A stretch of 64,000 nt of DNA from contig NZ_AP024900.1 of NCBI RefSeq assembly GCF_024347075.1, forward strand, positions 1,984,001 to 2,048,000, read 5' to 3'. The notes beneath the pieces are model-generated. The model had not been told where the DNA came from. It worked only from the letters and a program-made list of their open reading frames with translations, and ran no database searches. Below are positions 306-64,000 of this stretch, in pieces. Position 1 is the first letter of the stretch; every line of letters begins with the position of its first letter. A program made the translations under genes and the position numbers. This DNA is from Vibrio rarus (lineage in GTDB: Bacteria > Pseudomonadota > Gammaproteobacteria > Enterobacterales > Vibrionaceae).

Positions 306-1250
306 GTGGCAGGTATTTTTTTTGTTATGATCGCAGCTGGACTTTGGGCCGCTGACACTTTATTTCGTTATCCATTATTAGAAAACAATAGCACGCTGCA
401 AATCGTGTTCTTTGAGCACATTGTATTAGTGGTGATCATTGCCCTTTTACAAATTGCCGTGCCCAAATGGCGCTTTGCGTATATTAAAGGCTCCCTTTTG
501 CCTTTCATCATCATTGGGGTGTTTGGCTCTGCCATTGGTACTCTAGCCTTTACTAAAGCCTTCACTTTAATGAATCCTACCATAGTGATTTTGCTACAAA
601 AATTGCAACCCATTGTAGCCATCTCTTTATCGGTTATTTTACTCAAAGAAAAACTGCAAAGGCATTTCCTGCTGTGGGCGAGCATTAGCTTGCTAGGGAG
701 TTTGGTTATGATTGCCCCAGACATTGTTGCCCTCTTAGAGCAAGAATCTGTTTGGCATTACGACCCTAAATTGGTCACTATATTACTCGGCTATGGTTCG
801 GCTTTGCTGGCCGTGATGGCATGGGGGGCTTCGACGGTATACGGACGAAAGCTTACTATGATGGGCTACAACAGCATGCAGATTATGTCAGGTCGTTTTA
901 CCTTGGCCTTATTTACCTTAGTGTTCGCTATGCTGGGTTATGGAGAGCAATTTACTCTGGCCGAAGGCAGTTTTAGCCATCTGCTTTATATGGTGATCTT
1001 ATCAGGGCTGTTAGGCATGTTCATTTATTACAAAGGATTAGAAAGAATTCCAGCCCGCTATGGCACTATTGCTGAGTTATTTTTCCCAGTGTCTGCGGTA
1101 GCCATTAACTGGTTTGCCTTTGATGTGACCTTAACCATACAGCAGGTTATCGGGGCCATCTTTTTAGTGGGAGGGGCACTAATGATGAGTCGCGAGCCGA
1201 AACAAAGCATTGCAACGACACAGGACGATGGGAGTCCTCAGCAAGCCTAA
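306..1250 (+). CDS. EamA/DMT-family transporter, probable riboflavin importer
   Basis: A very hydrophobic protein of about 314 residues with roughly ten membrane segments in two EamA-type halves. The stretch FTKAFTLMNPTIVILLQKLQ is typical of drug/metabolite transporters. The gene sits behind an FMN riboswitch, which points to flavin transport like that of the RibN DMT family; substrate is inferred from that context only. The GTG at 306 is chosen because GGAGA lies 5 nt upstream. An ATG at 273 has no ribosome site, and an ATG at 327 is also in frame. The gene is followed by the feo operon terminator on the other strand. Confidence 0.8.
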   Translation: MAGIFFVMIAAGLWAADTLFRYPLLENNSTLQIVFFEHIVLVVIIALLQIAVPKWRFAYIKGSLLPFIIIGVFGSAIGTLAFTKAFTLMNPTIVILLQKLQPIVAISLSVILLKEKLQRHFLLWASISLLGSLVMIAPDIVALLEQESVWHYDPKLVTILLGYGSALLAVMAWGASTVYGRKLTMMGYNSMQIMSGRFTLALFTLVFAMLGYGEQFTLAEGSFSHLLYMVILSGLLGMFIYYKGLERIPARYGTIAELFFPVSAVAINWFAFDVTLTIQQVIGAIFLVGGALMMSREPKQSIATTQDDGSPQQA

Positions 1251-1265
1251 TACACTCATAAAAAA

Positions 1266-1298
1266 AGCTAGGCGACTGTAAACAGTAAACGCCTAGCT
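1266..1298 (-). terminator. intrinsic terminator of feoABC
   Basis: AGCTAGGCG (1266-1274) pairs with CGCCTAGCT (1290-1298), with a nested ACTGT/ACAGT inside the loop. On the minus strand the stem is followed by a run of seven U. It lies 27 bp past the feoC stop. There is no U-run in the plus direction, so it serves the feo operon. Confidence 0.8.
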
Positions 1299-1324
1299 GA
1301 CTGGAACCGAACAAAGGTAAATGA

Positions 1325-1546
1325 TTACATCTGTACGTTTAAGCTTATGCCTTGGTTGAGAGCGTAACGAACGCCCTTATCTTTACCTTTAATGGTATCG
1401 TGCATTCGGGACACTTTGCCTTTTTTTATCCATACTTGAAACATGGCATCGACACCATCTTCAGACAGACCAAAATGATTAGCGAGTACGCTTCTGTCTG
1501 TGGTGCCATGCTGTTCAAGGTAGGCTTTCAGTTGCTGTAAAATCAT
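1325..1546 (-). CDS. feoC: FeoC-like winged-helix protein
   Basis: A 73-residue protein beginning MILQQLKAYLEQHG with a helix-turn-helix pattern (RSVLANHFGLSEDGVDAMF) typical of FeoC. It is the third gene of feoABC, 18 bp after feoB. FeoC associates with FeoB in the inner membrane in vibrios. The protein contains no cysteine at all, so it cannot carry the iron-sulfur cluster of enterobacterial FeoC; a cysteine-less form is known in Vibrio. Family assignment is firm; the molecular role is less settled. Confidence 0.88.
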   Translation of the reverse strand: MILQQLKAYLEQHGTTDRSVLANHFGLSEDGVDAMFQVWIKKGKVSRMHDTIKGKDKGVRYALNQGISLNVQM

Positions 1547-1564
1547 CTTTCACCTTCTTTACGA

Positions 1565-3838
1565 TTAGGCCACTGACTCATGCTCTTGCCAGCGGTCTCT
1601 ATTACCTTTGCGCTTGAGGCCCATAAATGTGGCCAAAGACACCAGTGCAACCACCAATATCCAACAGGCACTGCTTACAGGGTGAGCGGTGAACGTCATC
1701 ACTTGGTTGTATAGCACGGCGCTAAGGTAGGCAAGGCCCATGGTCCAAGCGGCAATAAAGCGAGCGTATTGGCTGCCAAACTCTCTTACATAAGCGCCCA
1801 TTGCCGCCACACAAGGTGTATATAACAAGATAAACAATAGATAAGCAAAAGCGGCATGTCCGGAAACAAACTTGCTTTGTAAATTAGCAAATACAGATTG
1901 ATCTACCTCTTGCTCATCCGCCACTGAAGCAGTGTCTGACAAGTCGCCGACTTCCATACCTAGTGGGTCACTAAAGCTTAGGCCACTTAAGTTTTCAGGA
2001 ATCGACAATACAGCCTCTTCAAGACTGACAATAAGATCGAAAGTGGCATCCTCTTCTTCAGGAGTTGAGTAAAGGCTATTCAATGTACCGACTACCGCTT
2101 CTTTAGCGAAAATACCAGTCACAATACCTACCGTTGCTGGCCAGTTGTCTTTTTCGATGCCCATTGGCTCAAAGACTGGGGTAATGACCTGTGCTGCTTT
2201 AGACAATACCGAACTGTCACTGTCTTCATTACCAAAACTGCCGTCAGTACCTATAGAATTAAGGAAACTTAAAATAGTGACCACTAGCACAATGGTTTTA
2301 CCTGCACCAAAGACAAAGCGTTTGAGTTTATGCCACGTTTTGATCATCACATTACGTAAACGAGGGATCTCATAGTCGGTCATTTCCATCACAAAGCTGT
2401 CATTGCTGCCAGGGTAAATCGTATGCTTTAGTACGATACCAGTGAATACCGCAGCTAAGATACCAATAATGTACAAGGCGAAAACCACATTCTGCCCAGC
2501 CGTTGGGAAAAAGGCCGCTGCAAACAGTGCATAAACAGGAAGACGTGCACCACAAGACATAAAGGGAGCCATTGATGCGGCTAAGCGACGCTCACGCTCT
2601 TGATCTAATGTGCGACTGGCCATAATCGCTGGCACATTACAGCCAAAACCTAATACCAATGGCACAAAGGCTTTACCTGGCAAACCAACCTTTTGCATCA
2701 CTTTATCTAATACAAAAGCGGCTCGTGACATATAACCGGAACCTTCTAAAAGGGTCAGGAACAAGTACAAACCGGCAATAACAGGAATAAAGGTGGCAAC
2801 GGTTTGAATACCGCCACCAATACCGTTAGCTAGCAGAGTGACTATCCATTGTGGCAAAAGGGGATCTAATAATGCATGAGTGCCGTCAACCAATAGTGCG
2901 CCAAAAGCAATATCAAAGAAATCGATAAAGGCACCGCCAATATTAATGGCAAACATAAACATTAGGTACATCACCCCAAAGAACAGTGGAATACCTACCC
3001 ATTTATTAAGCACTACCGAGTCAATACGCTCACTCAAGCGACGTGTAATTTTGCCTTCAGTCACTCTAAAAGATTTGGTCAACTCATGTAAAAAAGTAAA
3101 TTTTACATCGGCAATATGCAGATCAATATCCATATCCAATGTATGGCGAGCCTGCGCTGTCACATCTTTCACTTCTGGCGAAACGGTATTGAGCACCAGG
3201 GTGTCTCCTTCAAGACCGCGTATGGCAAGAGCTCTATTGCTCACCATATCGTTCGCATATTGGTCTTGAACTTGTGAGATAACCTGCTCAAATTCACTGC
3301 CGTAGTCCAGAGCTAAAGGAGTAACTTCAATGCCACTGGCCAACATTTTATGTAGGTCAGCCTTAAGCTGATTTACTTCATTAATGCGCGTCGCGGTCAC
3401 AGCCATAACCGGGCAACCGAGTGCCTTAGCTAACCCTTTAATATTGACTTTCTGACCCATACGGTTCATCGAGTCCATTTTATTAAGGATGACCACCATA
3501 GGGCGCCCCAATTCACGCAACTGCAGCGTGACATATAAGCTTCGTTCTAAACAGGTAGCATCGATAACATTGATAATAACGTCAGCCGGAGTGGATAATA
3601 CTGAACGCGAGGCAATGGTTTCGTCGAGACTGTTGCTGTCATTACCACTGTCTAAGGCATAAATACCCGGTAAATCAGTTAAGCTAAACTCTTCACCCGC
3701 TAATGTATAAGTACCGGTTTTCTTCTCTACAGTGACACCCGCCCAGTTACCTACCTTCTGGTTTGAACCAGTAAAGGCATTAAAAAGCGTCGTTTTACCG
3801 CTGTTAGGATTACCTACGGTGAGTATGGAATAGTCCAC
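1565..3838 (-). CDS. feoB: ferrous iron transporter FeoB
   Basis: A 757-residue inner-membrane Fe(II) permease. The N-terminal G domain shows a P-loop GNPNSGKT at residues 9-16, DLPG near 55 and NKMD near 120. The C-terminal half holds the Gate-type membrane segments (GCNVPAIMASR, SCGARLPVYALF). The length is normal for the family. The start is GTG and overlaps the feoA stop by one base (TAGTG), so the two are translationally coupled. A charged insert near residues 600-660 (EEEDATFDLIV onwards) resembles the longer periplasmic or cytoplasmic loop of Vibrio FeoB. Confidence 0.97.
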   Translation of the reverse strand: MDYSILTVGNPNSGKTTLFNAFTGSNQKVGNWAGVTVEKKTGTYTLAGEEFSLTDLPGIYALDSGNDSNSLDETIASRSVLSTPADVIINVIDATCLERSLYVTLQLRELGRPMVVILNKMDSMNRMGQKVNIKGLAKALGCPVMAVTATRINEVNQLKADLHKMLASGIEVTPLALDYGSEFEQVISQVQDQYANDMVSNRALAIRGLEGDTLVLNTVSPEVKDVTAQARHTLDMDIDLHIADVKFTFLHELTKSFRVTEGKITRRLSERIDSVVLNKWVGIPLFFGVMYLMFMFAINIGGAFIDFFDIAFGALLVDGTHALLDPLLPQWIVTLLANGIGGGIQTVATFIPVIAGLYLFLTLLEGSGYMSRAAFVLDKVMQKVGLPGKAFVPLVLGFGCNVPAIMASRTLDQERERRLAASMAPFMSCGARLPVYALFAAAFFPTAGQNVVFALYIIGILAAVFTGIVLKHTIYPGSNDSFVMEMTDYEIPRLRNVMIKTWHKLKRFVFGAGKTIVLVVTILSFLNSIGTDGSFGNEDSDSSVLSKAAQVITPVFEPMGIEKDNWPATVGIVTGIFAKEAVVGTLNSLYSTPEEEDATFDLIVSLEEAVLSIPENLSGLSFSDPLGMEVGDLSDTASVADEQEVDQSVFANLQSKFVSGHAAFAYLLFILLYTPCVAAMGAYVREFGSQYARFIAAWTMGLAYLSAVLYNQVMTFTAHPVSSACWILVVALVSLATFMGLKRKGNRDRWQEHESVA

Positions 3839-4065
3839 TATGCGACCTCTATTGAAATTTGTGCTGCAGTAGATTTACGAATAGCAACGCTGACATCACG
3901 TACTCGCACCTGTAATGGATCTCCCATTGGCGCTTTGCGTACTAATGTGACTGCTGTATTCGGTAGCAGTCCCATGACCATTAATTTTTTTCTAGTGGAA
4001 CTATCCAATTGCTGTAAAGAGCGAATTGTTGCAGATTGTCCAACATTGAGTTCAGCGAGTTTCAT
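3838..4065 (-). CDS. feoA: ferrous iron transport protein FeoA
   Basis: A 75-residue SH3-like protein (MKLAELNVGQSATIRSL) that supports FeoB. It is the first gene of feoABC. The pattern MGLLPNTAVTLVRKAPMGDP is characteristic of FeoA. A Fur-box-like palindrome lies just upstream, indicating repression when iron is plentiful. Confidence 0.95.
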   Translation of the reverse strand: MKLAELNVGQSATIRSLQQLDSSTRKKLMVMGLLPNTAVTLVRKAPMGDPLQVRVRDVSVAIRKSTAAQISIEVA

Positions 4066-4073
4066 AATCTAAA

Positions 4074-4088
4074 TGCCAATTATTATCA
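4074..4088 (-). promoter_or_regulatory. Fur box upstream of feoA
   Basis: TGCCAAT-T-ATTATCA (read TGATAAT-A-ATTGGCA on the minus strand) matches the 7-1-7 Fur consensus TGATAATNATTATCA except at two positions. It lies 9 bp upstream of the feoA start codon, so it would overlap the leader or promoter. Confidence 0.7.
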
Positions 4089-4144
4089 TTTACAAAGACC
4101 TTAACACATTTACTTACAGAAGAGTTGTTTTAAATCAAAAAAAA

Positions 4145-4162
4145 CGCCCTTAGCAAAGGGCG
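4145..4162 (-). terminator. intrinsic terminator after znuA
   Basis: CGCCCT (4145-4150) and AGGGCG (4157-4162) form a 6-bp GC-rich stem with a 6-nt loop. On the minus strand a run of eight U follows. It sits 36 bp past the znuA stop. Confidence 0.8.
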
Positions 4163-4198
4163 CTTGTATTTAACACCAAATCTATCTAAAGAAATAAA

Positions 4199-5074
4199 CT
4201 ATTTAAGACAGGTCGCAAACTGAGTGGTCAAATCATTTAAGAAATCGAAATAAGCACCCGGTTTTTCTTCAATATCGGTGGCCAGTGGATCAAGCACCCC
4301 CCTCGATACATGACTACCACGAGTCACCGTATCCACCACCGCTGGCGTGTATTGTGGCTCACTAAAGACACACTTAACATCACCTTTTGCGAGGCGAGTT
4401 TTAATTTCAATGAGTGTTTTTGCCCCCGGTTTTCTTTCTGGACTCACCGTAAAGTGGCCTAAGTGATTTAGATTAAATGACTTTTCAAAATAGCCATAAC
4501 CATCATGAAACACAAAATAGCCACTCTCTTGTACTGGCTTTAGTCGCTGGGTAATGTCAGCAGTGGTCACGGTTAGTTGACTCAAGAAGTGGTCTAAATT
4601 TTCTTTGTAGATTTTTTTGTTGTTTGGGTCTATCTCAGACAATTTGTTGGCAATGTGTGTCGCAACGCTGGCCACCTGCTGAGGGCCTAACCAAAAATGA
4701 GGATCAATGTTGCCATGATGGTGATGTCCATCGCCATCATGATGTCCCTGTGCAAAATGGTGAAGATCTAAGCCTTTAATATCGCTAATAGTGAGCAAAT
4801 TGTGCTGATTACGCGTAGCGGATGACATAAAGCTTTCAAGATCGGGGCCAAACCAGATCACTAAGTCAGCTTGACGTATTTTTTTTATATCAGAAGGGCG
4901 CAAAGCATAATCATGAGGTGACATAGCCGCATCCAATAGGGATGATGACGATGCTGCCTTCATTGTTATCTCCTGAGTAATAAGGTGTATAGGCTTAATA
5001 CTGCTGAGCACTTCTACTGCCTGTGCGCTGCTAATATAAGCAAAAGAAATCAAGCATAATAAGAGGCGTTTCAT
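4199..5074 (-). CDS. znuA: zinc ABC transporter, periplasmic binding protein ZnuA
   Basis: About 291 residues. A signal peptide (MKRLLLCLISFAYISSAQA) precedes the mature protein. A histidine-rich loop near residues 108-124 (HHDGDGHHHHGN) is diagnostic of ZnuA zinc chaperoning. The start at 5074 is preferred because GGAAC lies 7 nt upstream and it begins directly with the signal peptide; an upstream in-frame ATG at 5092 would add six residues before it. The gene is divergent from znuCB. Confidence 0.94.
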   Translation of the reverse strand: MKRLLLCLISFAYISSAQAVEVLSSIKPIHLITQEITMKAASSSSLLDAAMSPHDYALRPSDIKKIRQADLVIWFGPDLESFMSSATRNQHNLLTISDIKGLDLHHFAQGHHDGDGHHHHGNIDPHFWLGPQQVASVATHIANKLSEIDPNNKKIYKENLDHFLSQLTVTTADITQRLKPVQESGYFVFHDGYGYFEKSFNLNHLGHFTVSPERKPGAKTLIEIKTRLAKGDVKCVFSEPQYTPAVVDTVTRGSHVSRGVLDPLATDIEEKPGAYFDFLNDLTTQFATCLK

Positions 5075-5112
5075 CAATTCGTTCCATTGCAATAGAGAAA
5101 GTTAGCTTTAGA

Positions 5113-5127
5113 TGTTACTTTATAACA
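5113..5127. promoter_or_regulatory. Zur-like operator between znuA and znuCB
   Basis: TGTTA-CTTTA-TAACA is an inverted repeat resembling the Zur box core TGTTATNNNATAACA. It lies in the 154-bp divergent region between znuA and znuC, where Zur is known to bind in gammaproteobacteria. Assignment is by pattern and place. Confidence 0.55.
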
Positions 5128-5228
5128 CTGGTTTTTTGCAAATGGAGTTACCATTGCAAAATAGAAGTGTTAACACTCTGTGAGTGATAATGCGCTGCAA
5201 CTCACCTTTACACGACAGGCCAATAACT

Positions 5229-6038
5229 ATGACCCAACTCGTCACGCTACAAGATGTGACCGTTCAATTTGACCAAAGAAAGGTATTGGACAACATCACT
5301 CTTACCATTAATGAAGCTGAAATCACGACGTTAGTTGGCCCAAACGGCGCGGGCAAATCCACCTTAGTAAAAGTGATTTTAGGCTTGCACAAGCATTACA
5401 CGGGAAAAGTGAGCAAGCTAAATAAATTGCGCATTGGTTATGTGCCACAAAAACTGCTACTCAATGAATCTTTACCTTTAACGGTAGACCGATTTTTACG
5501 ATTAGCAGGGAAATACAGTCAACAAGAGCGTCAAGATGCCTTAGCTTTAGTTGGGGCTACGCACCTACTCCACTCTGATGTGCATAAATTATCGGGGGGT
5601 GAAAGCCAGCGTGTATTGATGTCGCGCGCACTGTTAATTCGACCACAGCTACTGGTGTTAGACGAGCCGGCTCAAGGGATGGATGTACAAGGACAAATTG
5701 AACTCTACAGTCTGATTGATACCCTACGTCACCGCTTTAATTGCGCGGTGTTTATGATCTCTCATGATCTGCACCTTGTAATGGCAAAAACAGACACGGT
5801 GATTTGTCTTCATCATCATATTTGTTGCTCTGGCGCGCCGGCCGCCATTTCCAGCCACCCAAGCTATTTACAAATGTTTGGTGAAGCCCCAGCGGCCAGC
5901 CTCGCTCTTTATCAGCATCAACACCAACATCACCATCACGACCTGTCAGGCACTCCCATAAGCGGTGACATGGACACTTGTCATAACCCAAAACATGGTC
6001 ATCAACATCGCCACCAGCATGGACACACACATGATTGA
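5229..6038 (+). CDS. znuC: zinc ABC transporter ATP-binding protein ZnuC
   Basis: About 269 residues. Walker A GPNGAGKST near residue 38, signature LSGGESQRV, Walker B LLVLDEP and the H-loop SHDLH are all present. The start at 5229 (MTQLVTLQDVTV) aligns with the beginning of the ABC fold. The C-terminus has a long histidine-rich tail with about 20 His in the last 45 residues, which could buffer zinc at the cytoplasmic face. The last 8 bases overlap znuB (ATGATTGA), so translation is probably coupled. Confidence 0.95.
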   Translation: MTQLVTLQDVTVQFDQRKVLDNITLTINEAEITTLVGPNGAGKSTLVKVILGLHKHYTGKVSKLNKLRIGYVPQKLLLNESLPLTVDRFLRLAGKYSQQERQDALALVGATHLLHSDVHKLSGGESQRVLMSRALLIRPQLLVLDEPAQGMDVQGQIELYSLIDTLRHRFNCAVFMISHDLHLVMAKTDTVICLHHHICCSGAPAAISSHPSYLQMFGEAPAASLALYQHQHQHHHHDLSGTPISGDMDTCHNPKHGHQHRHQHGHTHD

Positions 6039-6816
6039 ATTTTTATTGCCGGCCATTTTAGCCGGTCTCGGTATTACTATGATTGCCGGCCCATTGGGAT
6101 CATTTGTTGTGTGGCGAAAAATGGCCTATTTTGGTGACACACTCGCTCACGCCTCTCTAATGGGATTGGCTTTAGGCTTCCTATTGGACATTAATATCTA
6201 CTTAGCCTTAGTGGTTTGCTGTTTGGCTCTTGCCATCATCTTAGCCACCTTACAAAGACAACAACTGGTGGCTACGGATACTTTATTAGGTATTTTAGCG
6301 CACAGCTCGCTCTCTCTTGGCTTAATTGCTGTCAGCTTTCTTGACAATGTGCGAGTGGATTTAATGGGCTATCTCTTTGGGGATTTGCTGGCGGTAAACA
6401 CACAGGATGTATTGTTTATTTATGTAGGGGTGGCACTGGTGTTGCTATTACTGCTTGTATTCTGGCGCCCTTTACTCTCGAGTACTGTTAATGAGGAGTT
6501 AGCCGCCATTGAAGGGGTCAATATTTCTCTAATGAGACTGTTAATCATGTTGATGATAGGTCTGGTTATTGCGGTGGGTATGAAGTTTGTTGGCGCGCTC
6601 ATTATCACCTCTTTGATGATAATTCCTGCTGCGACCGCTCGGCGCTTAGCCAATAGCCCAGAAAAAATGGCAATTATCGCCTCAGTGATCGGCGCAATAT
6701 GTGTCTGCTCAGGTCTCGCTCTTTCTTGGTTTTATGATACTCCAGCTGGCCCTTCAGTGGTGGTCAGCGCGAGCTTTTTATTCTTGTTAGTACAATTAAA
6801 ACCGCAAAACCGCTAA
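6031..6816 (+). CDS. znuB: zinc ABC transporter permease ZnuB
   Basis: 261 residues, the same length as the E. coli protein, with about eight membrane segments. It starts MIEFLLPAILAGLGI and shows the family stretch WRKMAYFGDTLAHASLMG. It overlaps the end of znuC by 8 bp. A longer reading frame extends upstream into znuC but has no support. Confidence 0.95.
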   Translation: MIEFLLPAILAGLGITMIAGPLGSFVVWRKMAYFGDTLAHASLMGLALGFLLDINIYLALVVCCLALAIILATLQRQQLVATDTLLGILAHSSLSLGLIAVSFLDNVRVDLMGYLFGDLLAVNTQDVLFIYVGVALVLLLLLVFWRPLLSSTVNEELAAIEGVNISLMRLLIMLMIGLVIAVGMKFVGALIITSLMIIPAATARRLANSPEKMAIIASVIGAICVCSGLALSWFYDTPAGPSVVVSASFLFLLVQLKPQNR

Positions 6817-6833
6817 CAATTCTATCGTAAAAC

Positions 6834-6868
6834 AAAAAACCTCTAAATTTTCATTTAGAGGTTTTTTT
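6834..6868. terminator. bidirectional terminator between znuB and sucD
   Basis: A stem of AAAAAACCTCTAAAT (6834-6848) with ATTTAGAGGTTTTTT (6853-6867) and a 4-nt loop. A-run and T-run flank it, so it can stop znuCB from the left and the suc operon from the right. Confidence 0.85.
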
Positions 6869-6896
6869 AATGCATTTAGCTAAGTGCTAGAAGAGA

Positions 6897-7769
6897 TTAC
6901 CAACCGGTAATTTCACGTAGCCCTTGACCAATATCGGCCAAACTTTTCACCGTTTTTACCCCTGCAGCTTCCAGCGCTTGGAATTTATCTTCAGCGGTAC
7001 CTTTACCACCAGAGATAATCGCACCGGCATGACCCATACGCTTACCTGGAGGCGCTGTTACACCAGCAATGTAAGAGACGACAGGTTTAGAAACATGCTC
7101 TTTAATGAAGGCAGCCGCTTCTTCTTCCGCTGTACCACCAATTTCACCAATCATCACAATCGCTTCAGTTTCTGAGTCAGCTTCAAACAGTTTTAAGATG
7201 TCGATGAAGTTTGAGCCAGGAATTGGGTCCCCACCGATACCCACACAGGTGGATTGGCCAAAGCCTTCGTCAGTGGTTTGCTTAACCGCTTCATAAGTTA
7301 AGGTACCAGAGCGAGACACTATGCCCACTTTGCCCTTCTTATGAATATTACCCGGCATGATACCAATCTTACACTCGTCAGGAGTAATCACCCCTGGGCA
7401 GTTAGGACCAATCATCACCACGCCAGCTTCGTCTAAACGCACTTTAACGTCCAGTAGATCCAGTGTTGGAATACCTTCGGTAATGGTGACGATTAACTTA
7501 ATACCTGCATCAATGGCTTCTAGGATCGCGTCCTTACAAAACGGAGCAGGTACATAGATAACCGAAGCGGTCGCAGCGGTTGTTTCTACCGCTTCACGTA
7601 CTGTATTAAATACCGGAAGACCAAGGTGAGTTTGACCGCCTTTACCCGGTGATACACCACCGACCATTTTGGTTCCGTAATCCAATGCTTGCTGTGAATG
7701 GAAAGTACCTTGACCGCCAGTGAAGCCTTGGCAAATAACTTTCGTATCTTTATTAATTAGTACAGACAT
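6897..7769 (-). CDS. sucD: succinyl-CoA synthetase alpha subunit
   Basis: 290 residues of the ADP/GDP-forming ligase that converts succinyl-CoA to succinate. The CoA-binding Rossmann start ([12 protein letters not shown]) is followed by the phospho-histidine region [17 protein letters not shown]. The start codon overlaps the sucC stop by one base (TAATG). It is the last gene of the sdh-suc cluster and is followed by a terminator. Confidence 0.97.
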
Positions 7770-8935
7770 TATTTGCCCTCCGCTGCAGCTACGACTTTTT
7801 CTGCAGCTTCTGTTAGAGAATTTGCCGCAATAATGTTTAGACCACTTTCAGCCAGTTTTTGTGAACCTAGAGGAGCATTGTTGCCTTCTAAGCGAACCAC
7901 GACCGGCACCTTAACCCCCACTTCTTCAACAGCACCAATAATGCCATCTGCAATCAAATCACAACGTACAATGCCACCAAAGATGTTCACTAGTACCGCT
8001 TTCACATTGTCATCGGACAAAATGATCTTAAAGGCTTCTGTAACGCGCTCTTTGGTTGCGCCGCCGCCTACATCAAGGAAATTCGCTGGGTGGCCACCGT
8101 GCAAGTTCACAATATCCATGGTACCCATAGCAAGACCTGCGCCGTTAACCATGCAGCCGATGTTACCATCAAGAGCCACATAGTTGAGCTCCCACTTAGC
8201 GGCATTGGCTTCACGCTCATCTTCTTGAGAAGGATCGTGCATTTCACGCAGTTTTGGCTGACGGTACAGTGCGTTAGAGTCAATGTTGATTTTGCCATCA
8301 AGACAAAGCAAGTTACCCTCTAGCGTTTGCACTAGCGGGTTAATCTCAAGAAGCGCTAAATCGTATTCGGCAAACATGTTACCAAGACCCATAAAGATCT
8401 TCACAAACTGCTTATTTTGCTCTCCTTCAAGACCCAGCTTAAACGCCAGTTCACGACCTTGGTAAGTTTGAGGACCCACCAAAGGATCAATCGCCGCTTG
8501 ATGAATCAACTCTGGTGTTTCTTCAGCAATTTTTTCAATATCTACGCCGCCTTCTGTGGAAGCCATAAATACGATGCGACGTGAAGCGCGGTCAACAACG
8601 GCACCTAAGTACAGTTCATTGGCAATGTTAGATGCCTCTTCAACCAAAATTTTCGTGACTGGCTGACCATTGGCGTCCGTTTGAAATGTGACTAGATTTT
8701 TACCTAACCACTTCTTGGCAAATTCTTTTACACCTTCTTTGGTGTCATGCAGTTCAACACCGCCTGCTTTACCGCGACCACCAGCGTGGACTTGACATTT
8801 AACCACTTTTTTCGCGGTGCTAATTCTGCCAGCAGCTTCAAACGCTTGTTGAGGCGTATCGCATGCATAGCCCTCTGGTACGGGTAGCCCATATTCAGCA
8901 AACAATTGCTTCGCTTGATATTCATGCAAATTCAT
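7769..8935 (-). CDS. sucC: succinyl-CoA synthetase beta subunit
   Basis: 388 residues, the standard length. It begins [20 protein letters not shown]. The ATP-grasp domain is in the N-terminal two thirds, and the ligase domain shows [13 protein letters not shown]. It is coupled to sucD. Confidence 0.97.
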
Positions 8936-20329: not shown

Positions 20330-20491
20330 ATACCAATCACACTAAGTAAGTGATCAGAAATAGCGCAGGAAAAATGCTCGAAAACAAGGCAGAATTTTTC
20401 GATAAGTAGTTATTCTACAATCAAAAATTCTAACGCAGTTATCGAGTATTTTAACAAGCTAGAATGACCCGTTATTTAGTACTATTGGTAT
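20330..20491 (+). repeat. 162-bp hairpin intergenic repeat, copy A
   Basis: Perfect 8-bp terminal inverted repeats ATACCAAT (20330) and ATTGGTAT (to 20491), extended by ACTAA and TCA matches. Inside, AGAATTTTT (20391-20399) pairs with AAAAATTCT (20423-20431), and AAAATGCTCGA pairs imperfectly with TCGAGTATTTT, so the whole element can fold on itself. It is almost identical to copy D and close to copy B. There is no coding capacity, so it is a non-autonomous, MITE-like or structured repeat. Confidence 0.85.
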
Positions 20492-57205: not shown

Positions 57206-57547
57206 ATGAAAAAGAACAATACGTCAATTTCATCAGAAACCCAACAGCAAGCGATGCAAGTTGCACGAGCGACCCAAAAACCTGGGCAAACAAAAGAGCA
57301 AACCCGCTTAATTGCCCTGGGCATCGAAAAAGGTATTGCTGAATATAAGAAGCGTCAGAAGCAAAAATCTCGAGAAGCCGACAAGTTGAAAAAGCGTGCC
57401 AGTAAGCAAAAACAAAGCGCTACAAAGCCTACGGCAGAAACTGTCACTTCCCCTATAGAAACGTCGTCTAACACACACTATTTACCTTGGGCTTTACTGT
57501 TGGTCAGTTGGATTGGTTTCATTGTTTACACGGTTCTTGTTGCTTAG
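57206..57547 (+). CDS. DUF2956 protein
   Basis: 113 residues. A Gln/Lys/Arg-rich N-terminal half (ATQKPGQTKEQTRLIALGIE, a DUF2956 hallmark) and one C-terminal membrane span (LPWALLLVSWIGFIVYTVLV) suggest a tail-anchored protein. Function unknown. Confidence 0.82.
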   Translation: MKKNNTSISSETQQQAMQVARATQKPGQTKEQTRLIALGIEKGIAEYKKRQKQKSREADKLKKRASKQKQSATKPTAETVTSPIETSSNTHYLPWALLLVSWIGFIVYTVLVA

Positions 57548-57554
57548 TAGAGCA

Positions 57555-57833
57555 TTAAGAAAGATGTGAGCGTAATTGGGTGGTATTTCCCGCTACCCAA
57601 TGTTCATCTAATGGTCCCCAATCGGACACACAATAATAACCGTCATTATGACGGCGTCCATCTTGAATAAAAGATAGAGATATACCAATACCGGGTAATG
57701 CCTTCAACACATCTTGAATGGTGCGTCGTGGCCATCCAGTATACTCCACCAAACGTGGAACATTCGGTCTATCTAGGCTTGCCACCAAATGAGCAAGATA
57801 CAAGCGCCGAGCAAAAACAGGATTCAATTCCAT
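57555..57833 (-). CDS. winged helix-turn-helix protein
   Basis: 92 residues. A helix-turn-helix is visible in PNVPRLVEYTGWPRRTIQDVLKALPG, followed by a probable wing (QDGRRHNDGYYCV). AGGAGGTATCA gives an excellent ribosome site. It is probably a small DNA-binding regulator with unknown targets; it lies next to the element insertion at yffB. Confidence 0.72.
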   Translation of the reverse strand: MELNPVFARRLYLAHLVASLDRPNVPRLVEYTGWPRRTIQDVLKALPGIGISLSFIQDGRRHNDGYYCVSDWGPLDEHWVAGNTTQLRSHLS

Positions 57834-58044
57834 TGATACCTCCTACAGCTGTTTTGCTCAATTATTGCCAATAACAACATTGGAGACTTGAGACGGATCA
57901 AACAACATTGACTCTTTTAGGGCCTGTAATCCGTTTTTTATTCAATTCGAGACATAGCCTACTTTTGTAAATTAGAGTTAGTGATACACCCCATCGAATT
58001 TGTTTGGTAGGATTCCTATATATTCCACTCACTAAGGACAGATA

Positions 58045-58077
58045 ATGAGCGTTATTATGTACGGTATCCCGAACTGC
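58045..58077 (+). repeat. left direct repeat (attL-like) of the yffB-inserted element
   Basis: The 33 bp from ATGAGCGTTATT to CCGAACTGC are identical to 62509-62541. They encode the first 11 codons of yffB, including the Asn-Cys of its active-site motif. The bases on both sides differ between copies, so the repeat is exactly 33 bp. Confidence 0.9.
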
Positions 58078-58089
58078 AAGACCTTTTAG
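58045..58089 (+). pseudogene. displaced 5' end of yffB
   Basis: The native start context (AAGGACAGATA then ATG) is kept here, but after the first 11 codons the frame runs into element sequence and stops: MSVIMYGIPNC then KTF and stop. The result is a 14-codon peptide. The intact yffB lies 4.4 kb downstream. This is the left junction of the insertion. Confidence 0.85.
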
Positions 58090-58124
58090 ACCCTTCCGTA
58101 TACTAAATCTAAACTTCACGTAAC

Positions 58125-58301
58125 TTATTGATTTTCAAGTGAGCGACATCTGACTCCCACATAAACCAGTGATCCAATGGTATAACCGCCAATAATCAAC
58201 CAGTCATACCAAAGAATCGGTTCATCAAATAGCCAAGCATACCCAATATACGCCCAACCAATAACTGTCCACAGTAATGGCGTTAATGCTGCACCTAACA
58301 T
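58125..58301 (-). CDS. small two-span membrane protein
   Basis: 58 residues with two membrane segments (LTPLLWTVIGWAYIGYAWLF and WYDWLIIGGYTIGSLVYVGV) and a basic C-terminus. AGAGG lies 9 nt before the ATG at 58301. It is downstream of the cargo operon terminator, near the left end of the element. No recognised family. Confidence 0.55.
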   Translation of the reverse strand: MLGAALTPLLWTVIGWAYIGYAWLFDEPILWYDWLIIGGYTIGSLVYVGVRCRSLENQ

Positions 58302-58365
58302 TTCCAAACCTCTTTTTTCTCAATCACAAGGGTCTACCCTGTGAAAATTCTTTTCCAAAAATAGA

Positions 58366-58400
58366 AAACGACCCTAAAGACATAGTCTTAAGAGCCGTTT
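58366..58400 (-). terminator. intrinsic terminator of the element's cargo operon
   Basis: AAACG (58366-58370) with CGTTT (58396-58400), and CT-A-AAGAC with GTCTT-A-AG inside, give a symmetrical hairpin. Read on the minus strand it is followed by TTCTATTTTTGG. It lies 16 bp past the coiled-coil gene. Confidence 0.65.
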
Positions 58401-58416
58401 CAATTTTGTCACTAGG

Positions 58417-59136
58417 CTATACCCGTTTGCCAACGTCTGATATTTGCTTAGCTTTACTTGCCTTCCGATATAGCTTATAGCCAATAAACAATGCACCTAC
58501 GATACCAACACGACCAAAGATTGGAATCAAACACACCGCAATAACAAGTGAAACGATCAGATATGTATTGGAGTTTTTATCATCAGCGGCTTTCTCAAAT
58601 GAAGTTTTCATATTGTATTTGGGGTCAATTACACGTTTGAGTTTTTCTTGACGTTCCAAATTAGCCGCAAGCTCTTCCTTCAAAATAGACACTTTATTTT
58701 CTATTGTCTCTAGAGCTTCGTTTGTTGGTTGTTTCAGTGTGCGCACGCTCGTATCTTGAGATGCATATTTTAGAGCCAACTTGTTCTTTTCTGACTGAAT
58801 TTCAATCAGTCTGACTTTGTTATCTAGTACTTCTCGATGAAGAGCACTTATAGCGCTATCGTCATCAGCTTCTTCATTGCAAGCAGGCTCTAAGTCCGTA
58901 ATAGCTTCATTCCTTGCGTTAAGCCTGCACTCCTCTTCCTTTAAACTATCCTGTGCAGAAACCAAGTTTTTAAGCTCGGTCTCATTAGTTTTTCGCTGCT
59001 TGTTATGGTCTTCTCTATGAGCTTTAGATTCATTGACCAGCTTATCAAGTTCTTTTCTAATAGCCTTCTCTTTGCTCTGAGCTTCTTGCAGTTCTGTTTT
59101 TAGTTCTAGTTCCACGATTACTTCCTCTTCTACCAT
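58417..59136 (-). CDS. coiled-coil protein with C-terminal membrane segment (unknown)
   Basis: 239 residues. Residues 1-165 are highly charged, with heptad-like Leu/Lys/Glu patterns (ELELKTELQEAQSKEKAIRK onward) that predict long coiled coil. A hydrophobic region near 195-222 (YLIVSLVIAVCLIPIFG, IVGALFIGYKLY) would anchor it, leaving a short basic tail. Its ATG overlaps the end of the glycine-zipper gene by 7 bp, so the two are probably coupled. I know no named family. Confidence 0.75.
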   Translation of the reverse strand: MVEEEVIVELELKTELQEAQSKEKAIRKELDKLVNESKAHREDHNKQRKTNETELKNLVSAQDSLKEEECRLNARNEAITDLEPACNEEADDDSAISALHREVLDNKVRLIEIQSEKNKLALKYASQDTSVRTLKQPTNEALETIENKVSILKEELAANLERQEKLKRVIDPKYNMKTSFEKAADDKNSNTYLIVSLVIAVCLIPIFGRVGIVGALFIGYKLYRKASKAKQISDVGKRV

Positions 59137-60083
59137 TTAGCCCAAAAAGCTGAAGCTTTTTGGGCTAAAGCTTTTGAGATATCTTGCGCTTCATCAAAAG
59201 TTTCTTTTGCATAGACTGCTGCATCGTTAGCTAGAGACTCGACTTCATCATTTCTGTTTTTCGATTTTTCATCATCTAGATCTGGACGAGCAATTTCTTC
59301 ACCTACGCTTTTTCCTATTATTTGCCCCGCAACGCCACCTACAGCAGCTCCGACAACGGTTCCAAAACCTGGAAAGACTGAACCCACAATAGCCCCAACT
59401 TTTGCTCCAGCAACTGCACCTGTCATCCCACCAGCTATTTTTCCAGCTTTCGCCATCCCTGTATCCAGAGAGCCATCGAGGTATCCATATTGCCAATAAT
59501 CTTCAACCTGAGTTTCAAACTGATTTTTTGCTTCAGTTATTAGAGTTAGATCACTAAGTGCATCTTCTGTAAAATTCTGGCTATCATCAATCAGTCCATC
59601 AATATAGAGGTATGCCAACTCAATAGCCGCATAAAGCTCTGAGGACTCAACTCCTCTGCTCATTAACTCATCTAGAGCACTGAGTACCACTGGTAACGCA
59701 CTAGTTCGGAGAACACTTCGTAATTGAAGAAACTCAGGCTTATCATCGATATCTTCTAATACTTCTCTCGCAGCAAACCTCAAAGGATTTGTTGTTAATC
59801 GAATTCCCGTCGAAATATTATTAACCAACTGAGCTGATTCAGATTTAGTTAGCATTTGTTGAAGTACAATTTCAGTAGCTTTTATTGCGTGAGGTGGGTA
59901 TAAGCTGAAAACTTCGGAGTGCACACCATAGTCATCGGCCAAATTTCGACAAATATACTCAATAACATCTAAATGTATTTTCGCTAGATTCCCATAGATT
60001 ATAGGGTCCTGCGATAACTCAAGTTTAGATACGCTAATCAAAAGTGTGTATGCACTACTGTGGAGCCTATCAGTCATTTTCAT
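59130..60083 (-). CDS. glycine-zipper membrane-type protein (unknown)
   Basis: 317 residues. The first 200 are helical, with no motif I recognise. Residues about 212-265 form a strong glycine-zipper stretch (GKIAGGMTGAVAGAKVGAIV then GFGTVVGAAVGGVAGQIIG) typical of membrane-inserting or pore-forming helices. A charged C-terminal helix ends AFWAKW. Its start overlaps the preceding stop as ATGA. Such zippers occur in toxins, colicin-like proteins and outer-membrane lipoproteins; there is no signal peptide here. Confidence 0.75.
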   Translation of the reverse strand: MKMTDRLHSSAYTLLISVSKLELSQDPIIYGNLAKIHLDVIEYICRNLADDYGVHSEVFSLYPPHAIKATEIVLQQMLTKSESAQLVNNISTGIRLTTNPLRFAAREVLEDIDDKPEFLQLRSVLRTSALPVVLSALDELMSRGVESSELYAAIELAYLYIDGLIDDSQNFTEDALSDLTLITEAKNQFETQVEDYWQYGYLDGSLDTGMAKAGKIAGGMTGAVAGAKVGAIVGSVFPGFGTVVGAAVGGVAGQIIGKSVGEEIARPDLDDEKSKNRNDEVESLANDAAVYAKETFDEAQDISKALAQKASAFWAKW

Positions 60084-60494
60084 GAGATAAAATCCACTAA
60101 ATCATCACTTAAGCTCAAAGCTCCACTCATAAAGTTCTGAGCTAACTCCATAGAATCTTCAGAGTCACCGATAATGCTTTTAACTAGAGTCCCATTTTCA
60201 AATACTGATGCACCCATCACATTTTCTTGTGCAAATGAGTGACCACCATCTACGCCATGAAAATGTGTATTCCCAAAAGCATCTTCGTTACTAAATCCTT
60301 TAAAACTTCCATCTTGATCGAAGTGGCTTGTACCAAAAGCACTATCAACGTCTCTCCCACCAAAAGAACCGTTAGCTTCAAAATAATTAGTACCTAAGTT
60401 AAATGGCGTTGGAGTTGACGACCCTATCAGTTGTCCCTCCTGACTAAAGAGACTCTGTGTTCCAAATGTGGTTGTTTTGTTTATAAATGACATT
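60080..60494 (-). CDS. short FG-repeat protein (unknown)
   Basis: 137 residues starting MSFINKTTTFGTQSLF. Five imperfect repeats of about 20-22 residues share the pattern FGxxxFxxxGxF: FGTQSLFSQEGQ, LGTNYFEANGSFGG, FGTSHFDQDGSFKG, FGNTHFHGVDGG and MGASVFENGT. They suggest stacked beta-hairpins. The ATG lies inside the last codons of the resolvase gene in another frame (14-bp overlap), so translation is likely coupled. No known family recognised. Confidence 0.72.
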
Positions 60495-61017
60495 TCGAAA
60501 TAATCCGATATACAGAAGAAAGACTTATATTCAACTTTTGAGCAACTTGTGCCTTGCTCATCCCACAAACTAGTAACTCACGCACTTGTGCTTGCTTAGC
60601 TCTAGTTGTCGGTTTACGCCCTTTCGATTTAGCCAGCGCAATACCTTCTGCCTGACGTTCAAGAAGGGTTTGCCGCTCAAATGTGGCGATAGCTCCAATT
60701 AGAGTCACCATAAGGCGACCCGTTGTGCTGGCGGTGTCTATCCCTAGATTTAACACCTGTAATGATACTTTCTTAACATCGAGTAATTCGACGACCTCAA
60801 GCAGATGCTTTGTGTTCGTTGCAAGCCTACATAGCTTTGTTATCTTGACTGTGTCACCTTCTCGGACGTACTCAAGCATACAATTCAGCTCTTCTCGTTC
60901 TGATTGTGCGCCCGACTTTTTCTCTTGAAAGACGATGTCACAGTCATTTAATGCGTTCAATTGATCCTCTAAACTCTGCCCTGTCGTGCTCACTCGTGCG
61001 TATCCAACGATTGCCAT
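60481..61017 (-). CDS. serine resolvase/invertase with altered active site
   Basis: 178 residues with a resolvase catalytic domain (GYARVSTTGQSLEDQL, catalytic Ser10) and a C-terminal helix-turn-helix (MSKAQVAQKLNISLSSVYRI). The usual LDRLARST segment reads LCRLATNT here: the first arginine is kept, but the second, equal to Arg71 of gamma-delta resolvase, is Thr. Activity is therefore doubtful. GGAGAA precedes the ATG. It begins the cargo operon and overlaps the FG-repeat gene. Confidence 0.88.
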   Translation of the reverse strand: MAIVGYARVSTTGQSLEDQLNALNDCDIVFQEKKSGAQSEREELNCMLEYVREGDTVKITKLCRLATNTKHLLEVVELLDVKKVSLQVLNLGIDTASTTGRLMVTLIGAIATFERQTLLERQAEGIALAKSKGRKPTTRAKQAQVRELLVCGMSKAQVAQKLNISLSSVYRIISKCHL

Positions 61018-61080
61018 AAATTCTCCAACGAAACAGTCTATGGTATGGCAACTCTTACAAATAGATTATTCCACAAACCT

Positions 61081-61110
61081 CATTTAAATTCATTTAAATT
61101 CATTTAAATT
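61081..61110. repeat. three tandem 10-bp repeats upstream of the resolvase
   Basis: CATTTAAATT occurs three times without interruption, directly upstream of the resolvase leader. Each unit contains the palindrome ATTTAAAT. It could be a binding array for a regulator, resolvase subsites or an iteron-like array. Confidence 0.85.
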
Positions 61111-61216
61111 ATTGATAAGACTCTGATTTCCTATTGACCAACTCACTTAATACAGCATGTACAAATTCGATAACTCTGGTAAGTAATAGTTCGATGATAA
61201 ATTGTTTGAATTTCAT
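61109..61216 (-). CDS. putative 35-residue peptide gene
   Basis: MKFKQFIIELLLTRVIEFV begins an amphipathic or hydrophobic helix, followed by a polar tail ending SESYQ. AAAGGGG lies 4 nt before the ATG, one of the strongest ribosome sites in the element. The stop touches the tandem repeats. Function unknown; a toxin-like or membrane-active peptide is possible. Confidence 0.5.
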   Translation of the reverse strand: MKFKQFIIELLLTRVIEFVHAVLSELVNRKSESYQ

Positions 61217-61244
61217 GGTAGCCCCTTTCGTTAGTTTGATTACA

Positions 61245-61269
61245 TAGCGAGAATTCTAATAACTCGCTA
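61245..61269 (-). other. hairpin between the HNH pseudogene and the small ORF
   Basis: TAGCGAG (61245-61251) pairs with CTCGCTA (61263-61269) across an 11-nt loop. There is no T-run on either side. It may be a weak terminator or an operator-like site. Confidence 0.35.
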
Positions 61270-61306
61270 CACATTTCTTATAACCCTTGAGCTAACAAAA
61301 ATTGAA

Positions 61307-61936
61307 TTATGAACATAACCCTAATTCTTGCGCTATATCGTAGCTATCAATGGCAGCATCGTTAGCCCTATCAAACAGGTAATCATCCATGTCATGTGCT
61401 TTTGGAGGGATGTCAAAGTTCCAGCGAATGAATCCGTACGGATGATGTGGCTCTTCAACCCAAGAGTGGAAATATTCTTCTTGATAACTTTGGTCTCGTT
61501 ACAGGGTTGCACGTTCAACGGTCGAAAATTTTCCTACCCATTTTCTGTCTTCTGCATCCCAAGCACGAAAATAATCTCGTACTCGTTTCATGCCAAACCA
61601 ATGCCTGTAGGAAGGTTGGTCATCTTTAGCTAGGTTGTTTTGGCGTGAACTACACACCCGAAGATTACCTCGGCGATTATTAAGCGTATCCTTGTCTACA
61701 TAATCGACTTCTTGGTCTCGCTCTGGACTCTCTATGAGCCTGTGGAGCAGTTTTCCGTCTTGAGAGCACCTAGCAACCCAATTACCATCATTAAGCTGCT
61801 GAGCGTAGAAGCTGCGCTCTGAGAGCAATTCAATATCGCAAAGATCAATCATGGCAATCTTTCGGTTTCCAAGACTGATTAATGCGACTAACTGCCATTC
61901 AAAATTGATTAACGACAAAGTCTGTTTTGTCACCAT
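61307..61936 (-). pseudogene. HNH-endonuclease-like gene with an in-frame stop
   Basis: The frame from 61936 shows the HNH-type stretch QEVDYVDKDTLNNRRGNLRV with CSSRQNN after it. It meets a TAA at 61499-61501 and then continues in the same frame for 63 coherent codons (RDQSYQEEYFHSWVEEPHHP to the stop at 61307). Removing that one stop joins two halves of one protein of about 180-209 residues. The normal DH of the HNH core is DY, so the catalytic histidine is also missing. A likely start is the ATG at 61852. Confidence 0.75.
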
Positions 61937-61942
61937 TCCAGC

Positions 61943-62476
61943 TCAACCAATCAGGCAAGGCAGCCTTGAGTTCTTGGCTTTAATGCCATTCAAAGCATCG
62001 AGGCGAGCTTTATTCCATACAGCGGAGGTTCTTTGAGACTTCATTTCTGACTCCTCATTAGCTCGACTCATGGTTACGATCGACATAATCAGTTTTGTCA
62101 TATCTAGTTCACCACGTTTGTAAACATGGTTATCTGACAAAGTTACGAGCGTAATCCCCCGATTCACAACTTGTAGCAACAAAGCCAAAGCATCTTCAAC
62201 AGCTTGTCGACTTAGTCGATCGAACGACTCAACGAGCAGGTAGCAATTTGAATCTATCTTTTGCTCATCAACAAGTCTAAGGAATGCACCTAAAGCACCC
62301 TCAGTTGCATTTGAACCACGAAATGCACTAGCGCCAAAGTCACTAATCGAAACATCTTGTAAATCCAAGCCGTTCTTATCGGCATATGAGCGAGCAAGCT
62401 CAGTTTGTCTACGAATAGAGTCACCGTCAGCTTGTCGGCTTGAGCTAAAACGAATGTAACTGTAAGCTGTATTCAT
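61943..62476 (-). pseudogene. large serine recombinase, truncated after the catalytic domain
   Basis: 177 residues with an intact catalytic core: YSYIRFSSSRQADGDSIRRQ at the N-terminus and ESFDRLSRQAVEDAL with both arginines. The sequence then reads KARLDALNGIKAKNSRLPC and stops. In a neighbouring frame, just before the stop, the DNA reads LPDWLSWNGDKTDFVVN, which fits the PxWLxW start of the recombinase domain, so a frameshift is likely. The remaining few hundred residues of a normal large serine recombinase are absent; the HNH gene follows instead. It is divergent from yffB at the right end. Confidence 0.78.
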
Positions 62477-62508
62477 ATGATAATTACCACTTAAATGGAT
62501 GTATTTAC

Positions 62509-62541
62509 ATGAGCGTTATTATGTACGGTATCCCGAACTGC
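62509..62541 (+). repeat. right direct repeat (attR-like) of the yffB-inserted element
   Basis: A second exact copy of the 33-bp sequence at 58045. Here it forms the first 11 codons of the complete yffB gene. The upstream bases come from the element. Confidence 0.9.
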
Positions 62542-62859
62542 GATACCATCAAGAAAGCCAAAAAGTGGTTGGAAAGCCATCAAATTGACTTTACTTTTCA
62601 TGATTACCGTAAACACGGCATCACGACAGAAATGGTCACTGAGTTCTGTGACATCTTTGGTTGGGAGTTGGTGCTCAACAAGCGCGGCACCACTTATCGT
62701 CAACTTTCTGATGAACAAAAAAACACTCTTGATAAAAACAGTGCGATTGCACTTTTAGTCGAGCACCCTGCTATGGTTAAACGCCCTATTCTCCGTATTG
62801 GTGACCTTTTTCACATTGGCTTTAAAGCCGAACAATATGACAACATTTTTCACGTTTAA
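62509..62859 (+). CDS. yffB: ArsC/Spx-family reductase-like protein YffB
   Basis: 116 residues. The N-terminal GIPNCDTIKKAKKWL has the conserved cysteine (Cys11) of the ArsC-like thioredoxin fold. It is followed by dapE, as in E. coli. Its native promoter and ribosome site (AAGGA) were left behind at 58034-58044. Expression now depends on element sequence, with a weaker GGATG 9 nt before the ATG. The stop codon touches repeat copy D. Biochemical role is unclear for the family. Confidence 0.92.
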   Translation: MSVIMYGIPNCDTIKKAKKWLESHQIDFTFHDYRKHGITTEMVTEFCDIFGWELVLNKRGTTYRQLSDEQKNTLDKNSAIALLVEHPAMVKRPILRIGDLFHIGFKAEQYDNIFHV

Positions 62860-63020
62860 TACCAATCACACTAAGTAAGTGATCAGAAATAGCGCAGGAA
62901 AAATGCTCGAAAACAAGGCAGAATTTTTCGACAAGTAGTTATTCTACAATCAAAAATTCTAACGCTGTTATCGAGTATTTTAACAAGCTAGAATGATCAG
63001 TTATTTAGTACGATTGGTAT
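62859..63020 (+). repeat. 162-bp hairpin intergenic repeat, copy D
   Basis: Nearly identical to copy A, with the same 8-bp ends ATACCAAT and ATTGGTAT. Its first base is the last base of the yffB stop codon. It fills most of the gap to dapE, whose ribosome site AAGGAATTAGG follows. Confidence 0.87.
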
Positions 63021-63041
63021 AACCTGCTTTAAGGAATTAGG

Positions 63042-64000
63042 ATGAACTCAAGTCCTGTTTTAGAACTCGCCATTGATTTAATGAGTCGCGAGTCTGTCAC
63101 ACCAGAAGACGCTGGCTGTCAGCCACTAATGATTGAACGCCTCAAAGCACTAGGCTTTGCCATAGAAGTCATGCATTTTGATGACACCCTTAATCTATGG
63201 GCAAGAAAAGGCACACAAGCGCCCTTGTTCGCCTTTGCCGGTCATACCGATGTTGTCCCAGCAGGTAACTTAAAAGATTGGCGCACGCCGCCTTTTGAGC
63301 CCACCCTTAAGGATGGCTACTTATATGGGCGCGGGGCGGCTGACATGAAGGGCTCTCTAGCTTCTATGGTTGTCGCCGTCGAACGCTTTGTTGAGCAATA
63401 CCCGCAACACAGTGGCTCCATTGCCTTTCTCATCACCTCAGATGAAGAGGGTCCTTTCATTAACGGAACCACCCGTGTCATCGACACTCTAGTGGCCCGT
63501 GATGAAATCATAGATATGTGCATTGTCGGTGAACCTTCTTCTACTGAGTATGTGGGCGATATCGTTAAAAATGGCCGCCGCGGTTCATTTACCGGTGAGC
63601 TCACCGTCAAAGGTATTCAAGGCCATGTGGCCTATCCGCACATAGCGAAAAACCCGATTCATCAGGCACTACCAGCATTGACTGAGCTTAGCCAAGTTGA
63701 GTGGGATAACGGCAATGACTTCTTCCCACCCACCAGCTTCCAATTCCCTAATCTCAACTCAGGTACTGGTGCAAGCAATGTGATTCCCGGCGAATTGCAC
63801 GCTATGTTCAACCTAAGATACAGCACAGAGATCGGTCACCATCAAATTAAAGAGCGCGTTTATCAGGTATTAGATCAATATGATTTTGATTACGACCTAA
63901 AGTGGACTCTCAACGGCGAACCTTTCTTAACCGCTACCGGTGATCTTCTCACGGCTGTCGTTGATGCGGTGACGACGGTAAATGGCAAAGCCCCACAACT
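63042..64000 (+). CDS. dapE: succinyl-diaminopimelate desuccinylase, 5' part
   Basis: About 319 codons are visible before the window ends. Metal-site motifs [11 protein letters not shown] and [10 protein letters not shown], and catalytic SDEEGP, identify the M20 family enzyme DapE. It acts in lysine and diaminopimelate synthesis. AAGGA lies upstream of the ATG. The gene is cut by the window edge. Confidence 0.95.

Follow-up and report, generated by a model that had tools for sequence, protein, structure and literature searches.

Here, we analysed a 64,000-nucleotide stretch of the Vibrio rarus genome (NZ_AP024900.1, positions 1,984,001 to 2,048,000; the window in what follows) and describe a compact block of genes at the 5' coding end of yffB, whose product is related in sequence to the YffB protein of PDB entry 1rw1 and to Spx. 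The first 33 nucleotides of yffB occur twice on the plus strand, at 58045-58077 and 62509-62541, with a start-to-start distance of 4,464 bp, which confirms the perfect repeat around a minus-strand gene block that an earlier sequence-only reading had described. The upstream end of the identity falls exactly on the ATG of yffB, and the 46-nucleotide extension at 89% identity reported by a repeat finder is a run into the arm of the element. Apart from this pair, the only exact plus-strand 33-mers occurring twice in the window belong to one pair of a dispersed palindromic repeat.

The left copy stands behind the native leader of yffB (57834-58044, plus strand, upstream region and ribosome-binding site, ...CACTAAGGACAGATA-ATG...), which is conserved in relatives, aligns to the leaders of the seven loci L033-L039, and is here separated from its gene. 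Its frame ends after 14 residues (MSVIMYGIPNCKTF*), and the arm of the element at the left junction follows at 58078-58109. The right copy is the start of the complete yffB of 116 residues (62509-62859, plus strand; NCBIfam NF008107 above the cut-off; PDB 1rw1, named yffB, 2e-31), followed by dapE. The claim that the left copy has the native leader and a broken frame and the right copy the full gene is borne out. The present leader of yffB is the end of the element (62477-62508, plus strand), 32 bp that separate two divergent starts. All described open reading frames (ORFs) of the element lie on the minus strand. The G+C content is 0.38-0.43 inside the block and 0.40-0.48 around it in sliding windows, without a clear contrast, and no Rfam match was found in 57500-63300. 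A promoter scan returned no plus-strand site near either yffB start; the native leader was equally blank, so that the scan is uninformative.

Two recombinases had been noticed in the block, and both are indeed of the serine type, although that at the right end belongs to the large serine recombinases (LSRs) and is broken. This ORF (61943-62476, minus strand, 177 residues) corresponds to the N-terminal catalytic part of an LSR, and among phage families it matches a large integrase best (phrog_95, 4.5e-27). The open frames of its six best relatives span 515-593 residues, those of its Vibrio relatives mostly 500-690. In a piecewise comparison with P0011 (286 residues, 85% identical) and longer LSRs, residues 1-173 follow one frame and residues ~172-187 the next, while beyond residue ~187 there was no convincing LSR match and no recombinase-domain or zinc-ribbon part. 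Where the C-terminal part would follow lies an HNH endonuclease-like ORF (61499-61936, minus strand; PF13392, 9.8e-6), which has a 40% identical stretch in the Vibrio island L103; there, too, an HNH endonuclease-like ORF stands beside a gene for a Pin-like small serine recombinase (7365-7964). Because the similarity shifts frame near residue 172 and then gives way to nothing convincing and to the HNH-like ORF, the LSR of the window is broken, with its C-terminal remainder lost, and this copy of the element is a relic; the element is probably fixed and inactive in the present genome. The second recombinase, Pin-like and of 178 residues, has an intact frame (60481-61017, minus strand; PF00239, 1.8e-34, and HTH_7; phrog_125).

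Are sites without the element found in related Vibrio? They are, as the sequence-only reading expected. In the seven nearest relatives examined (L033-L039) a gene of the HTH_43 family, the leader, yffB and dapE follow each other uninterrupted, with one yffB match each and neither cargo nor element in the interval. Of 227 Vibrio genomes, 224 have a yffB match and 223 a match to the HTH_43 gene; for the 103 genomes with both positions listed, which we paired by hand, the interval between them measures 191-361 bp in 97 and more than 400 bp in six (the V. rarus genome, G018, G084, G158, G169 and G187).

The search for the same element elsewhere, also suggested earlier, led to sister insertions at yffB in Aeromonas caviae KAM479 and in the Vibrio genome G169. 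A search with the LSR fragment found in A. caviae KAM479 (NZ_AP026896.1, locus L106) an LSR that is 50% identical and directly adjoins yffB. This LSR of 571 residues carries the Resolvase, Recombinase and zinc-ribbon domains together, a set that the LSR of the window lacks. Further inward lie a Pin-like protein, 62% identical to that of the window, and a 233-residue protein with weak matches only. On the far side, ATGGCCACCACCCTCTATGGCATCAAGAACTGCGAGAGG codes for the native start MATTLYGIKNC (as in P0130), and yffB itself begins MENKTECKVVLYGISPKNC in its place. The repeat unit is 5,117 bp long, and the two junctions share AACTGCGA, 8 bp around the same codons. The A. caviae element had no DNA match in E. 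coli genomes and, among plasmids, matched its own record only; a peptide search of plasmids for the element-type start likewise gave a full match in A. caviae only. This record, labelled a plasmid in PLSDB, comprises 4.94 Mb with 18 annotated features and appears to be a chromosome.

In G169 (L064), the start of yffB occurs twice at a distance of 1,159 bp, and between the two copies lies a Pin-like fragment that is 78% identical to the protein of the window. At 30 bp from the right yffB start we found the apparent first codons of an LSR (GTG taken as start), matching the window by eye at 16 of 17 nucleotides and running into an immediate stop. The left arm agrees with that of the window at 22 of 32 positions in fixed register, a value equalled in 40,000 background comparisons by the self-match only. 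A pattern search matched 83 of 196 Vibrio genomes, and among these 83 two yffB 5' copies were present only in the V. rarus genome and in G169. The insertion in G169 is a decayed remnant of a sister element.

The stretch that recurs at either junction in each of the three insertions is AACTGC, about 6 bp (62536-62541 in the right copy, by comparison with L064 and L106), which contains the Asn-Cys codons of the IPNC motif of yffB; the cysteine of this pair we take to be the catalytic residue of ArsC/Spx-type proteins. The duplication had been considered long for a serine recombinase. The repeat does span 33 bp, but the shared core is only ~6 bp, and the remaining identity would represent a mimic of the target on the element side. 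In each case the gene of the probable integrase stands at the end of the element beside the attachment site, with 32 bp between LSR start and yffB ATG in the window, 30 bp in G169 (remnant) and 240 bp in A. caviae.

Further evidence comes from the YffB proteins themselves. The A. caviae YffB has 2,307 homologues, and of the best 120 among them 19 carry the element-type N-terminus, with at most three differences per 19 residues in any pair; the named hosts include A. enteropelogenes, A. sanarellii, A. veronii, A. simiae, Klebsiella sp. K4-50 and Citrobacter portucalensis. Identity averages 96% in the N-terminal 19 residues across all 171 pairs, whereas the bodies show a gapped mean of 72% and a minimum of 52% (68% and 42%, respectively, when compared ungapped over 95 residues). 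The body of the Klebsiella protein equals the native K. pneumoniae YffB at 100% over 107 residues, the native start being MLTMYGIKNC; the body of P0124 is 99% identical to the native A. caviae protein (P0130), that of P0129 98% to the native A. sanarellii protein (P0141), and that of P0126 98% to the native-type P0139. A switch at one codon that is consistent across genera is what site-specific exchange predicts. The replacement of the 5' end of the target is thus found in the A. caviae junctions and in the 19 grafted proteins, whose DNA context was seen in A. caviae only; in the window no change of sequence is visible, since the replaced codons are the same as in the left copy. Four further YffB proteins (P0181, P0189, P0190 and P0209, one of them from Endozoicomonas) resemble the element-type GISPKNC in having G[IL]SPSKC at the catalytic region, and a gene of this kind may be the source of the N-terminal module of the element. 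A distant search with the yffB of the window gave no match in E. coli, where the query is too divergent to inform.

Based on the empty sites, the N-terminal LSR part beside the right junction, the A. caviae sister, the two copies in G169 and the element-type N-termini, we consider it very likely, at a probability of about 0.88, that a compact LSR-driven element integrated site-specifically and rebuilt its target yffB, as had been proposed. The signature of an LSR-driven integrative element is present, with direct repeats at the junctions and the site empty in relatives. We infer that the LSR encoded at the right end would be the catalyst and would recombine attP of the element with the 5' coding end of yffB, with the exchange, and the exact dinucleotide, lying at or beside AACTGC in the Asn-Cys codons. 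The attP would bring its own start codon together with a mimic of the opening codons of yffB; the left junction would keep the stranded native leader and 5' end, and the right junction would give yffB a new in-frame front and a new leader, from which the rebuilt gene may be expressed and yield an active product. The cargo of the element lies beyond the Pin-like recombinase, which would be an accessory.

Several observations weigh against this reading. Given an exchange at AACTGC, the element side is expected to be foreign, as it is in A. caviae, and the copies in the window and in G169 are too alike for a freely travelling attP: the element-side copy equals the left copy at 33 of 33 nucleotides in the window, though related species differ at synonymous sites, and the copies in G169 agree at 47 of 48, including 13 nucleotides upstream of the ATG. 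Gene conversion after the insertion, or an attP acquired recently from the same species, would account for the close match; gene conversion has been suggested for a comparable case in bifidobacterial prophages (PMC6109161). Moreover, the A. caviae left arm is unlike the other two (11 and 13 of 32 positions), and the full-length LSR with known context comes from A. caviae as the sole member. In a tree of 81 LSRs, those of the window and of A. caviae fall into a clade of seven (99/96), apart from the other included Vibrio LSRs, which speaks for the reading; within this clade, however, they are not nearest neighbours, and two label changes are needed. Finally, among 84 loci with an LSR or a Pin-like gene from the genus and order searches, mostly with ~1.5 kb of flank, yffB was near only the two of the V. 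rarus genome, and no yffB insertion was seen outside the clade of seven; in the samples of Vibrio and of the order, LSRs at ~52% identity or less are therefore not located at yffB.

A last objection concerns the cargo, which raises the question whether it arrived together with the LSR. It comprises four minus-strand genes. The first (58125-58307) encodes a 60-residue protein that is predicted by eye to be a membrane protein and has a 40-42% identical segment beside the cargo of V. intestinalis and Vibrio sp. LaRot3 (L040/L041), and the second (58417-59136) a 239-residue protein of no confident family, coiled-coil-like and with C-terminal hydrophobic segments by eye. A 317-residue glycine-zipper protein (59130-60083; PF13488, 1e-6) follows, whose structure model was poor (mean pLDDT 59). 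The fourth encodes a repeat-like protein, 63% identical to the L040/L041 neighbours; its ORF spans 60080-60568 (162 residues), and comparison with these two relatives places the start probably at 60493, which gives 137 residues (60080-60493).

Could the cargo be an old resident of the interval between the HTH_43 gene and yffB, beside which the LSR element landed later? Full-length relatives of the 317-residue protein occur in three of the 227 Vibrio genomes, V. rarus included, all within this interval, and eight further genomes match around the glycine-rich stretch only. The leader adjoins yffB in V. intestinalis and Vibrio sp. LaRot3, whose tested stretches contained neither an LSR nor a Pin-like gene nor a second start of yffB, which speaks for residence; a chance independent arrival of related cargo at one interval is unlikely. 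However, the cargo of the window sits between the two yffB copies, and the seven nearest relatives have the interval free of it. We regard prior residence as unlikely, and the LSR-free cargo in the two other species may have arisen when the integrase was lost and recombination followed. There, L041 (8564-11095) and L040 hold the 137-residue, 317-residue and 60-residue-like genes beside one for a 335-residue protein, with no recombinase found; the 335-residue protein of L041 gave no Pfam match.

It is very unlikely that the Pin-like protein is the integrase and the LSR fragment a passenger, even though the former is the sole recombinase with an intact frame in the window element and all three yffB insertions hold its gene or a fragment. 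The LSR or its remnant, not the Pin-like gene, adjoins the right junction in all three. The closest Vibrio relatives of the Pin-like protein (84% and 70%; L102 and L103) occur at other sites in islands with a tyrosine integrase (PF00589; that of L103 reads as two ORFs), so that the target is not set by this protein, and a more distant relative (36%) lies in an LSR island (L104) with a bSEFIR protein (PADLOC 3.5e-80). The Pin-like recombinase therefore appears to be an accessory of several kinds of island and not the one that chooses the site. The L104 island (1156-7348 in G105; the LSR of G203 is 93% identical) combines an LSR, a Pin-like gene and a bSEFIR/TIR protein, in a similar layout at a different site and with defence-type cargo.

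The interval upstream of yffB acquires genes in several ways, since in different Vibrio it contains, by Pfam, an ion-channel protein (G018, and likewise G004, which is outside the 103-genome count), a chemotaxis receptor (G158, with a near-copy of that protein in G187) or a 2OG-Fe(II) oxygenase (G084). These unrelated single genes (L060, L061, L062, L063 and L070) are all in the orientation of the HTH_43 gene. Such accessory genes, an identity of 33 bp that exceeds the need of a serine core and its extension 13 nucleotides past the ATG in G169 would suit a plain duplication of yffB, or a scar of homologous recombination there, with captured genes. This is highly improbable, as the A. caviae junctions have only 8 bp in common around the same codons, each of the three insertions has an LSR or its remnant at the same end, and the N-terminal module is common to several genera.

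Other classes of mobile element were sought among the seven element ORFs. A transposon was rejected, as there is no DDE transposase, and so was a prophage, as there are no structural genes; the tail, lysis and internal-virion PHROGs matches, among the best 25 listed, all fall on the 317-residue protein at residues ~200-316. A defence system was not called for the cargo, with weak PADLOC matches (LeoBC 1.2e-4, LeoB 3.6e-4, Csx1 0.0017), two of them over the glycine zipper. We found no convincing match to relaxase or transfer genes (TraT 0.055 on the glycine zipper; oriT was not searched for) and no Phage_integrase Pfam match of a tyrosine-type integrase at E up to 0.1, Resolvase families being found instead. 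The DNA of the element matched nothing in plasmids (near search) or phages (distant search); scans of viral contigs gave four partial matches for the cargo and nothing for the LSRs and the N-terminal motif. Downstream of the element, a palindromic repeat of ~165 bp resembling a miniature inverted-repeat transposable element lies between yffB and dapE (62859-63020). The same genome contains 48 matches to it, of which 40, including this copy, are nearly full-length and 92-100% identical, and a second copy in the window starts near 20330.

The islands at dusA encode an integrase of the tyrosine type. They are described to equip their target with a new 5' end that includes a replacement beta strand, leave the displaced native 5' end at the far side, use 21-bp semiconserved repeats and occur in many hosts (PMC4482086). 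The yffB insertions share with them the replaced 5' end of the target and the displaced native end at the far side, but differ in the integrase family, the repeats and the target. Insertion at a 5' coding end had been called unusual, yet it has a published precedent with a serine recombinase: the 61-kb Burkholderia phage JC1 integrates in the 5' end of rimO with an 18-bp overlap, and the ATG of its attP keeps rimO in frame while six of the first ten residues change (PMC9144972). The JC1 recombinase is 39.8% identical to the LSR fragment of the window, and both systems combine a serine recombinase, the 5' end of a conserved gene and an in-frame start from the element; unlike JC1, the yffB insertions measure ~1.2, 4.5 and 5.1 kb. 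Serine integrative and mobilizable elements such as Tn4451, according to a review, use mostly specific sites, some inside coding genes, and the site-specific ones disrupt dispensable genes with very short flanking repeats (PMC5704250); they share the serine recombinase type with the yffB element, which has no recognised relaxase.

Is yffB a known target? The LSR catalogue of Durrant et al. describes many LSRs targeting one conserved coding site, and its main text names no ArsC, Spx, arsenate or yffB, while its supplementary tables may list the target (PMC10083194). In the literature searched, with these tables outside the search, we found no report of yffB as an integration target; one study lists yffB, unexplained, among the genes of a genomic island predicted in an Aeromonas strain (PMC10674900). 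The family and its target are thus new so far as searched, and the principle is known from the dusA islands and phage JC1.

We tentatively propose, though we hold it rather doubtful, that these insertions belong to a family of compact serine-integrase islands across Vibrionaceae, Aeromonadaceae and Enterobacteriaceae (the last by protein scar only) that swap the front end of yffB at the Asn-Cys codons. With a near-invariant N-terminus and a new leader, such an island would control the expression, and perhaps the activity, of a thiol-redox enzyme without its loss. Since the repair leaves a scar at the protein level (MENKTECKVVLYGISPKNC on YffB), insertions can be searched for in ordinary protein databases, and they offer a natural test of how attP gains a mimic of its target. 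The finding also indicates a natural integrase whose landing site in several gammaproteobacteria is conserved and apparently non-destructive. It suggests that small serine-integrase islands, too, habitually repair their target at the 5' coding end, as is best known from the dusA islands.

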